The notes beneath the pieces were generated by a model. It saw only the letters and a list, made by a program, of their open reading frames with translations, did no database searches and had not been told where the DNA came from. This document shows positions 56,801-59,955 of a stretch of 64,000 bases of DNA, piece by piece. Origin of the DNA: Antedon mediterranea. Lineage: Eukaryota; Echinodermata; Crinoidea; Comatulida; Antedonidae. Location: assembly GCF_964355755.1 (NCBI RefSeq), contig NC_092674.1, forward strand, positions 2,857,001-2,921,000, given 5' to 3'. Numbering within the stretch: the stretch's first letter is position 1; every line of letters begins with the position of its first letter. Made by a program: the position numbers and the translations under genes.

Positions 56801-59800
56801 TAGGTTTTTATATTTTAGTTAATTTTGCTAGTTCTTTTTGCATAACATATAGCTAGGGAGGCTAGGCCTAGCTAGGCCTTTAGGTTAGCAAGAGGTTTAG
56901 GCCTTGGGGTGGATTTTCTATTTTTAGAACTGCCGAGACTGCCGACCTTGGCGAATTTAAGGTCGGCAATTTTTTGCCGACCTTCTTTTTTCTGAATTTC
57001 GTGGGCTGGACAATAATTACTGTCCAAAATGTACAAACAACTTTTTAGTTTAAAGTTGAAACTACGAGATACAGTAATGTGCCCATTTTACAATGCCAAG
57101 TATGGGGATGCATGTTCTAACATAACATTTTTTAAATGAAGAAAAACATGAAATGAAGGTCACTAAACATAGGGCGGTTCTGCAAGGCCATACGGTTGTG
57201 AAAACACTTAAGCCAGCAATTAAATGACATAGTTTGTAATGTACTTCTGCAGTACAGTATTTTATTATTTTAGTACATATTGGAACAAATTTACTGTATG
57301 TAACAGTATGATAGTATTTAATGCATTTATAGACGTGTATTCATTAATAATAATACTTAATATTAAAATTTAGGTAGGTAGGTTGGGCTAACAAAACTTA
57401 TAACTAGACTACTGTAACATACTTTAATTTGCAAGGACTATATCATCTCCTAGTATAGAGTGACATACTATTGTCATTCTTTTTATTGTAATTGGCCCAA
57501 CAGAGGATTTAAAAAGGGATACAATAAATAACTTTTGATTGCAATGTATTACATTGTATATATCCAGTATTTTGATAAACTTCCCACTAGAACGTAACGC
57601 AAGGACGTAAACGCAACACAAGCGTTTTAACCAATGACAGGGGAAGTTATATACAGAAGCAATCACAAGCGAATAAGCCATCGCTTGTGATTGGTCAATT
57701 CACTTGCGTTGCGTTACGTCCTTGTGTTGCGTCGCTAGTGGGAAGCACGCTTTATGCATAAAGTAACAGAGCTTAAAGAACTATTAACCAGGTGTGACAT
57801 TGCATTAACACTGTCAGTTAATGTAGTTCAGTTTATATTCCATGTTTTAATTAGAAAACCTGAGACACATGTCACAAAGCAAACACAAACTCTGGTTAAT
57901 TTATTTGACAGTCTCTGGCTATTACCTGTATAGCAGAGTCATTTTTAAACATACTTTAATGTGACTACAGCTTTAATTCAAAATCTTTCTCAAGAAAATG
58001 ATAATAATTGTAAACACACTAACAAACCTTGCATTTCTCCTAAGACAACCAATTTGATTTTCTCTTTCATGATTTAAAGTTCCAATTTAACATAATTTAA
58101 AATCCATAAGCACAATGATTTTCACTTCAAATACAGTTAATACTGTAAATGTATATTTGACTATAAAAAAACTTAGTATGTGTACTAGTAATACTGTAGC
58201 CACGTTGCAATGGTTTGGAATGGATTGCAGATGGACTTCACACTCTCGGTCGGTCTGCAATCTGAACTTTCTAGTTTGTGTACTTTACTCAAACAGCACA
58301 ATACTTTACAAATTATAAATATCATCAATAGTTTATGGACTATACCAAATTTGTGGAGAGGGGTGTTCAATGAAAATTTCTACTTTTCGAGTTATATCCT
58401 CGCTCTTCAAGGAGAAAGGGGCTATTGTCGGTTTATCCAGGTACTGTAAGCTAGGCACGAAATAGACTATAAACATCATCAATTCAATACACTGACATGA
58501 AATTAAATGTCAAAAAGATTGTCATCATCTGTATGTATGGCTATGCGATTTTATATTTAATTAAATATTTTATAAATTATTTTAAAATCAGTTGCAGTGT
58601 ATATCTTTATTCATCCCTCATGGGGCAATTAACAAAAGAATTAGAAGGATATGGATTTCAGTACAGTAGCTTACGATAAAAAGTATAAAAAGTACAAATT
58701 TCAACATCAAACAAAATATATAGAATTCTTAAGAATTATAAAATGTTTAAGTTAAGATAATAAAAGGTAAAATTTATAAAATGTTATTTATTTAATAGTC
58801 TGATGGCAAAAGGCACAAATGAATTTCTTAATTTAGGTTTAGTTTTGCAAGTTTTACACCTGTATAATAACGGCGGTCATGAGGCAACACTTCATATTCC
58901 TTATAAACAATTTCTGGTGGTACATACCGAGTCCAATTTTTATTTTTCACACACAAATCATTCATACTGAAGATTAGAATACAATAATATCCTGGAAAAT
59001 CTTCAATCATAAATTTATTTCTCTTTAATGCAGGTATTGCTACTGTAATGTTTCTATTTATGGATTTCTATTTTTCATGATTTTGCAAATATTATTCAAA
59101 TCACACCTTCTACTATTCAGATTAAATACAATGAAAATTGGACTGGGTAAAAGTAGGCGGGGCAATACTTGTCTTTCACTATGTCTAAAGATTAATTCAA
59201 ACAGGTTCTACTCCTCCCATTCAATTCCATTTAATCATATCATTCACATAAAATACATAAAAAAATTCATACATACTGTACTGAAACCTAATTTGGAATT
59301 GTTCCTTATGCGCACTCACCACTAGGCTAGAGCTTCTTTCTAGGTTAGCCCTTCCCATGATAATATTAATAATTATATGTTCGTTTGCGATACCATGTTT
59401 TAATATGTATTGTTATGGTTTATTTTGTTGGGTATTTATTGACGAAAGAGGTACATCTTTATATTCAAACGCATGTCAAAAGAAAATCCTACAACATCAA
59501 ATTAATGCTTTATAAAATTTAGAAACTCGCATCAAAACAGAATAAAACAATCAAAATGCATAATAATATTTAATCAAAATAAAAAGATCTTTCTAAATTG
59601 TTTTAATTTACTCAAAAACAAATCACATTGACGATATATTTCAGCCATTAATTATCCTGTAGGATCCATCCTGTAGGACCCAGCTTGTAAAATAAATCAA
59701 TTCAAATGGAATGTCAAATTCCCATGCAAATTAGCCTAGACCTAGGCTAGGGCCAGGCATGACTGCTACACCAGTACAAAAGATGGTTAGACACACAGAG

Positions 59801-59955
59801 GGCGGTGGTGGATGCCGCTAAAGGCAGTTGAATAATGACAAGAAGGCCAAGCCTAGCTTTTTGGATGAGAATGTTGTGAACTTACCGCTTTGTTCTCCAA
59901 GGAATACAAGCTTGAATTTCCTTAAAGGATTACCAAAATCTCCCGAAGAGGACAT
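44837..59955 (-). CDS. RAB6A: Ras-related GTPase RAB6
   Basis: Seven exons (minus order): 59886-59955, 55725-55783, 53575-53734, 50686-50797, 50165-50258, 49421-49487 and 44837-44910, all GT-AG with matching phases, giving 211 aa. GTPase motifs: P-loop GEQSVGKT (20-27), switch I Thr45, WDTAGQE (67-73, catalytic Gln72), NKTD (126-129) and TSAK (155-158). [20 protein letters not shown] and [18 protein letters not shown] are typical of RAB6. The C-terminus Gly-Gly-Cys-Ala-Cys is a prenylation signal. By family it controls retrograde Golgi-ER and post-Golgi vesicle traffic. It is the invertebrate pro-orthologue of RAB6A/6B, so the symbol is nominal. A second first exon (58028-58070) and a second last exon (43176-43243) fit the same frame. 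Introns hold four CTCTGTC MITEs plus other elements; the last intron (4.5 kb) contains a transposon. Confidence 0.94.
46119..47221 (+). pseudogene. Transposon-encoded protein, truncated and split by a SINE
   Basis: Two pieces. 46119-46360 reads [20 protein letters not shown], then a stretch with [19 protein letters not shown] and SLQR. 46727-47221 reads [14 protein letters not shown] and later [20 protein letters not shown]. Together they look like the C-terminal half of a protein common in invertebrate repeats, with a transposase-like YFTDG (Asp) motif. The N-terminal half is missing: only about 100 bp separate the left inverted repeat from the first piece. The frame is interrupted at about 46390-46735 by the SINE. 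The family name is unknown to me. No function is expected in this copy. Confidence 0.65.
46400..46735 (-). repeat. tRNA-derived SINE inside the transposon
   Basis: The minus strand begins GAGCGAGTCATATGGCCGAG with an A box (TGGCCGAGCGGTTAAGG), then a Leu/Ser-like long variable region and a B box (GGGTTCGAGGCC). GCGAGTC pairs with GACTCGC as an acceptor-like stem. The body (TACACTGGACCTACGGTTTA in plus sense) matches 40440-40520. Confidence 0.65.
48904..49034. mobile_element. CTCTGTC-family MITE in the last RAB6 intron
   Basis: Ends AAGCTCTGTGTACACTATCA and AGTTTTATAGTGCAGACAGAG; the right half is shortened (CACATCCTTAG), lacking the usual CACACTTTTTTGTC. Confidence 0.82.
49143..49323. mobile_element. 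Foldback MITE (GACGCAACGCAAGG family), copy 1
   Basis: About 180 bp, almost wholly palindromic: AAGCGTGGTTCCCACTAGCG at one end, CTAGTGGGAACCAAGCTT at the other, arms rich in ACGCAACGCAAG/CTTGCGTTGCGT, with a central ATGGCTTATTCGCTTTTGAT. Confidence 0.85.
50488..50626. mobile_element. CTCTGTC-family MITE between RAB6 exons 5 and 6
   Basis: Ends AAGCTCTGCCTACACTATTA and GTTTGATAGTGTAGACAAGG, a short copy with one GGTAGTGATAT block. The right end lies about 60 bp from exon 5. Confidence 0.86.
51021..51288. mobile_element. CTCTGTC-family MITE with expanded internal 21-bp array
   Basis: About eleven tandem copies of CATATTTGGGCACATCACTAC (with ATATCAC variants) precede an intact right end CTAGTTTGATACTGTAGACA. 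The left inverted end is missing. Normal copies carry only two or three of these units. Confidence 0.9.
53145..53285. mobile_element. CTCTGTC-family MITE, right end lost
   Basis: Left end AAGCTCTGTCTACACTATCA intact. The copy follows the family consensus through TTTTTTTGTCACATAAAGTT and then breaks off before GATAGTGTAGACAGAGC. Confidence 0.87.
53469..53564. repeat. ~95-bp dispersed repeat, copy 1 of 3 in RAB6 introns
   Basis: GAGGGGTGTTCAATGAATTT ... TTTATCCAGGTAAGATAGGC. Related copies: 55887-55982 and 58353-58466. This copy ends about 10 bp beyond the exon 4 donor. Confidence 0.75.
53939..55120. mobile_element. ~1.2-kb probable DNA transposon, non-coding
   Basis: Imperfect inverted ends TACCCAGGGTTGTA and TACGCAGGGATGTA. 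The sequence is markedly more GC-rich than its surroundings at both ends, including GCGAGCGAAGCGAGG, a perfect hairpin CAGGGGCCTTCGGCCCCTG near 54073-54092, and a (T)GGGCGGA/GGGCGGG series at 55000-55100. No transposase is visible. Confidence 0.45.
55518..55700. mobile_element. Foldback MITE (GACGCAACGCAAGG family), copy 2
   Basis: Same structure and orientation as 49143-49323, with few differences. Its right end lies about 25 bp from RAB6 exon 3. Confidence 0.85.
55887..55982. repeat. ~95-bp dispersed repeat, copy 2 of 3
   Basis: AAGGGGTGTTCAATGAATTT then CTACTTTTCAAGTATACTTC, CTCTTTAAGGAGAATAGGGC and GGTTTATCCAGGTAAGCTAG. About 100 bp upstream (minus sense) of RAB6 exon 3. Confidence 0.75.
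56371..57008. mobile_element. 638-bp non-autonomous DNA transposon with 7-bp target duplication
   Basis: Inverted ends CAGCCCACGAATTTCA and TGAATTTCGTGGGCTG, flanked exactly by GACAATA on both sides (56364-56370, 57009-57015). Sub-terminal GTCGGCAA/TTGCCGACC motifs recur in both orientations. The duplication length is close to the 8 bp of hAT elements. No coding content. Confidence 0.82.
57589..57753. mobile_element. Foldback MITE (GACGCAACGCAAGG family), copy 3, inverted
   Basis: Same palindrome in the opposite orientation (TTCCCACTAGAACGTAACGC ... GCGTCGCTAGTGGGAAGC), slightly shorter. Confidence 0.83.
58028..58070 (-). CDS. RAB6A: RAB6 alternative first coding exon
   Basis: ATG at 58070 opens [14 protein letters not shown] plus one base, then a donor (CAAG|GTTTGTTAG). 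The phase (1) is the same as the main first exon, so splicing to 55783 gives [18 protein letters not shown] with a complete P-loop (GEMQVGKT). An in-frame stop lies just upstream and there is no nearby acceptor, so it should be a true first exon with its own promoter. The resulting protein would be 200 aa and lack the N-terminal extension [12 protein letters not shown]. Confidence 0.72.
58353..58466. repeat. ~95-bp dispersed repeat, copy 3 of 3
   Basis: GAGGGGTGTTCAATGAAAAT ... GGTTTATCCAGGTACTGTAA, ending GCTAGGCACGAAATAG. Lies about 280 bp upstream (minus sense) of the alternative RAB6 first exon. Confidence 0.75.
58590..58960 (-). mobile_element. LINE 3' end (L2/CR1-type), ORF2 C-terminus remnant
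   Basis: The minus strand encodes [16 protein letters not shown] followed by a stop, a typical L2/Rex1 ORF2 end, and then a 3' region with CATGAGGGATGAATAAAGAT. Upstream, [12 protein letters not shown] fits the same family; frames are mixed, so it is dead. Confidence 0.6.

Follow-up and report, generated by a model that had tools for sequence, protein, structure and literature searches.

A single RAB6 gene with alternative terminal exons at both ends is the reading that we consider likely for the crinoid Antedon mediterranea, and the sequence suggests that this gene probably gives rise to up to four RAB6 forms by varying its first and last exons. RAB6 acts as a switch in Golgi trafficking and is strongly conserved, with a nucleotide-binding loop that is normally constant; the RAB6 versions considered here, if used, would differ both at this loop and at the membrane tail. 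A choice of first exon that swaps part of the P-loop would, if true, be a natural experiment showing in what way a Rab is tuned by its counterparts of Ras residues 12 and 13. Competing U12-type acceptors that select the prenylated tail would, if true, represent an unusual case of alternative splicing by the minor spliceosome (PMC3584512).

The RAB6 locus and its canonical product

The gene occupies the minus strand of a 64-kb stretch of contig NC_092674.1 (positions 2,857,001 to 2,921,000; hereafter "the window", with coordinates counted from its first nucleotide), from 59955 to at least 43176. Its features are as follows (all on the minus strand; splice boundaries within sequences are marked by a slash).

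59886..59955, minus: E1, canonical first coding exon; 23 residues plus G, phase 1, donor gcg/GTAAGT
58071..58160, minus: possible 5' leader of E1', which would require use of the acceptor-like TACTAAGTTTTTTTATAG/TC at 58161/58160
58028..58070, minus: E1', candidate alternative first coding exon; 14 residues plus G, phase 1, donor aag/GTTTGT
55725..55783, minus: E2; common acceptor, P-loop completed whether E1 or E1' precedes
53575..53734, minus: E3; ATIGIDF...VVYDIT, with the switch regions and DTAGQE
50686..50797, minus: E4; ends ...NKTDLADK
50165..50258, minus: E5; RAB6 coding exon
49421..49487, minus: E6; 22 residues plus C, phase 1
49412..49420, minus: U12-type 5' splice site GTATCCTTT after E6; matches [AG]TATCCTTT
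44926..44932, minus: U12-type branch point CCTTAAC of exon A; 16 nt from the branch A to the AG
44837..44910, minus: last exon A; (L) plus 23 residues, CxC tail
43258..43264, minus: U12-type branch point CCTTAAC of exon B; 15 nt from the branch A to the AG
43176..43243, minus: last exon B, candidate alternative to exon A; (H)DVIIPKPMEQDPSPEDAGCYC, then stop

Joined together, E1 to E6 and last exon A encode a complete RAB6 protein of 211 residues, with E1 being 91% identical to residues 1-23 of human RAB6A. A search of the whole 354-Mb genome found RAB6 at this single locus, the remaining matches spanning the greater part of the protein being far weaker Rab relatives (23-37% identity). The protein is closer to RAB6 than to other Rabs, its nearest solved structures (the top PDB hits) being RAB6A, RAB6B and Drosophila RAB6. 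All four combinations of first and last exons yield open, RAB6-like reading frames. The Ras-family G domain (Pfam PF00071) is recognized with about 202 bits in the protein built on either first exon, the form combining E1' with tail B scoring 202.4 bits and the canonical one 201.6 bits, and both tails end in the C-terminal double-cysteine prenylation motif CxC (CAC and CYC directly before the stop codon). No internal duplicates of RAB6 exons were seen in a tblastn search of the window. A short tandem repeat (50953-51361) lies immediately upstream (5') of exon 4. Elsewhere in the window, on the plus strand, translations inspected by eye include exons resembling a receptor with Ig and TIR domains (IL-1R-like; 5554-10202) and exons resembling a long-chain acyl-CoA synthetase (26842-37818).

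A candidate second first coding exon

By its DNA structure, E1' is a well-formed, in-phase candidate for a second first coding exon. It reads ATG AAA GAG AAA ATC AAA TTG GTT GTC TTA GGA GAA ATG CAA G, then GTTTGT; E1 opens with the ATG at 59955 and closes with GAA CAA AGC G/GTAAGT. The start codon of E1', at 58070, has an in-frame TAA two codons upstream and an A at position -3, so that the exon combines a start codon of its own with an in-phase splice to the common acceptor. This acceptor, at 55783, reads ...TTTTTTCACAG/TTGGCAAAACA, and E2 contributes TT GGC AAA ACA to the single base left over by each first exon, the P-loop GxxxxGK[ST] thereby being completed as GEQSVGKT with E1 and as GEMQVGKT with E1'. 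The preliminary description of this DNA had arrived at the same P-loops, with both first exons ending in phase 1, and its placement of E1 at 59886-59955 and of E1' at 58028-58070 proved exact; both are on the minus strand and the frames are uninterrupted. Its broader proposal, that the two first exons are interchangeable, holds as far as the make-up of E1' is concerned: the exon is well formed, in phase, unique in the genome and hard to attribute to chance, and the window offers no other Rab gene of which it could be part.

Transcripts starting upstream of 59955 would use E1, and E1' would be used by transcripts from a second start, provided either by an internal promoter or by a 5' leader spliced into about position 58160; both exons would then be spliced to E2 at its single acceptor, 55783. 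The E1' form would lack the N-terminal leader, beginning three residues before strand beta1, and its counterparts of Ras residues 12 and 13 would be Met and Gln. The shared exons would supply both switches as well as the GKT threonine that binds magnesium. The E1' form might plausibly differ in GTP cycling.

One alternative is that E1' is a relic, i.e. a first exon duplicated long ago and now silent or transcribed only as noise. Its donor (AAG/GTTTGT) is indeed weaker than that of E1 (GCG/GTAAGT), and the possible leader contains two short upstream ORFs (with ATG at 58107 and 58093); a leader reaching back past 58107 would include both, one of them overlapping the E1' start codon, which counts against the use of E1'. 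However, when the strand/loop ends of the two exons are aligned over 11 residues, seven residues are common to both and four of the seven corresponding codons differ synonymously. Such divergence is in keeping with an old copy preserved for its protein sequence and not with a recent or decaying copy: synonymous sites have diverged, yet the beta1/P-loop residues, the ATG, the phase and the donor of E1' are intact, whereas a neutral 43-bp exon of such age would be expected to decay. We thus regard a relic as unlikely.

Another conceivable role of the region, though a decidedly improbable one, is that of a regulatory (poison) cassette between E1 and E2 (58160-58028), whose inclusion would shift the frame, bring in a TAA stop and lower the amount of RAB6. 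The acceptor-like sequence at 58161 fits this idea, as does the length of the cassette (133 nt, which is not divisible by three), which would lead to an early stop in translation from E1. Such a role does not account for the final 43 nt, which start with ATG and encode, in exact phase, a Rab beta1 strand and P-loop; this role could, moreover, coexist with use of E1' as a first exon.

The P-loop of human RAB20 is GDMNVGKT, with Met at the same place as in the E1' form, and RAB20 is for this reason a serious candidate if E1' is to be regarded as the first exon of another Rab gene. Nevertheless, tblastn searches with RAB6A, RAB20, RAB24, RAB21 and RAB5A revealed no other Rab exons in the window, so only RAB6 exons lie downstream of E1', and no other Rab exon ending at the P-loop position and phase of E1' occurs among the genomic pattern matches (see below) that were inspected. 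We consider it hardly credible that E1' belongs to another Rab gene, and an origin from RAB20 was rejected, as the genome contains a RAB20-like gene equipped with a first exon of its own, DVKVVIVGEAFVGKTTL. This gene (C1; L018:1320-1409, minus strand) has the P-loop GEAFVGKT at the place of the human GDMNVGKT.

E1' comprises just 43 nt and BLAST alone finds it only weakly (16.9 bits), which leaves room for the notion of a coincidence in AT-rich intron DNA. ATG-led, stop-free segments ending in a phase-1 G/GT were therefore scored with a matrix for the Rab beta1/P-loop region, built from the N-terminal sequences of human Rabs. Within the 64-kb window, both strands considered, only E1 (18.2) and E1' (15.3) score at least 5. 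An order-3 Markov null trained on the window produced, in 2780 Mb, six segments scoring at least 14 and none scoring at least 15.3, i.e. none reaching the score of E1', so the chance of a segment of this grade is less than about 1e-5 per 4.1-kb intron under this null; the earlier assessment that a random origin of the 43-bp segment is very unlikely is thus upheld. E1'-like exon ends are also rare genome-wide. The looser pattern [KR]-(NTN)4-G-[DE]-x-x-G/GT, where NTN codons stand for F/L/I/M/V, has 24 matches on both strands of the 354 Mb, against 11 when the pattern is reversed as a control. Among the 24 are E1 and E1' of RAB6, 1.9 kb apart; many of the others are copies of a LINE-endonuclease-like LGDFNGK stretch reading straight through. 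Chance is a poor explanation of E1', and we see next to no prospect of its being the right one. The possibility that E1' or last exon B is a copy of a dispersed repeat was likewise rejected, since each occurs once in the genome and no notable flanking repeats are shared.

A candidate second last exon behind a U12-type donor

The preliminary description had dealt with the first exons; our analysis adds a further candidate last exon that is in phase and has a 3' splice site of the U12 type. The end of E6 reads AAC/GTATCCTTT, a perfect U12-type donor. The motif [AG]TATCCTT occurs five times in the window, counting both strands, and only one occurrence is at an exon of the RAB6 gene. The sequence before last exon A is CTCCTTAACGTTATTTTTGCTCAG, and that before last exon B, which is in phase and encodes HDVIIPKPMEQDPSPEDAGCYC followed by a stop codon, is GAACCTTAACATAAACAACTCAAG. 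The branch-point motif CCTT[AG]AC is found only four times on the minus strand of the window, and two of these occurrences stand 16 and 15 nt before exons A and B, respectively. These distances are slightly long, as the optimum for U12 introns is 11-13 nt according to a review that also notes the lack of a pyrimidine tract in such introns (PMC3584512). The missing pyrimidine tract at the acceptor of exon B is what U12 splicing would predict, whereas U2 splicing would not.

The combination of a U12-type branch point, an AG and a short ORF that is in phase and ends in CxC or CC is met with only at exons A and B in the 128 kb of strand, the simulated expectation being 3.8e-4 per 10 kb. The tail of human RAB6A aligns well with tail A and more weakly with tail B, the latter still doing better than shuffles keeping the CxC (p ~0.005), and the two Antedon tails align with each other better than shuffles do (p ~0.003). 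Genes for the U12 and U6atac snRNAs, scoring above the Rfam cut-off, are present in the genome, pointing to a minor spliceosome in this species. AATAAA motifs lie 809 and 823 bases past the stop codon of exon A and 426 bases past that of exon B, such motifs being common in AT-rich DNA.

The stretch of the RAB6 U12-type intron also features two near-identical 99-codon ORFs in inverted orientation (45436-45735 on the minus and 47678-47977 on the plus strand), of which one lies within, and the other borders on, a part with a possible transposon-like ORF (46029-46397). This pair probably represents a mobile element.

In the scheme with alternative terminal exons at both ends, the single U12-type donor of E6 would pair with acceptor A or acceptor B, giving two CxC tails for geranylgeranylation. 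The first exon would be chosen by promoter, the choice of tail may be tied to 3'-end processing, and the outcome might be altered nucleotide kinetics and membrane targeting. More tentatively, one gene could furnish combinatorial Rab switches, in which a P-loop variant selected by the promoter and differing in its nucleotide cycle is combined with two tails obtained via competing U12-type 3' splice sites, and the gene could so do the work of the vertebrate RAB6A, A' and B; we find this extended proposal possible but doubtful.

Comparison with known systems

In a partial search of the literature we found no report of alternative first exons or U12-type last exons for RAB6, nor any of a Rab6 exon duplication or a minor intron in Rab6. 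The titles and opening parts of abstracts retrieved for Rab6 together with an alternative promoter mention no pair of first exons.

The arrangement proposed for Antedon resembles that of vertebrate RAB6A and RAB6A' in that isoforms of one RAB6 gene come from a choice between exon versions. Mouse Rab6 has mutually exclusive exons 4 and 5 (PMC2898759), in agreement with the preliminary description, according to which the known alternative exon of vertebrate RAB6 is internal; in the Antedon gene, by contrast, the choice would concern the first (P-loop) and the last (prenylated tail) coding exons. RAB6 forms with different tails are also known as the vertebrate paralogues RAB6A and RAB6B. These are separate genes, however, whereas the putative alternative last exons of Antedon RAB6 belong to one gene.

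With respect to splicing, the closest parallel is the JNK family, where different protein forms result from alternative use of a U12-type splice site. For U12 introns, alternative splicing is described as "almost entirely absent" (PMC3584512), and the pair of exons A and B deserves attention in its own right for this reason. In the JNK genes, alternative splicing around U12-type sites involves a hybrid U12/U2 choice (PMC3584512), whereas Antedon RAB6 would employ one U12-type donor with two U12-type last-exon acceptors.
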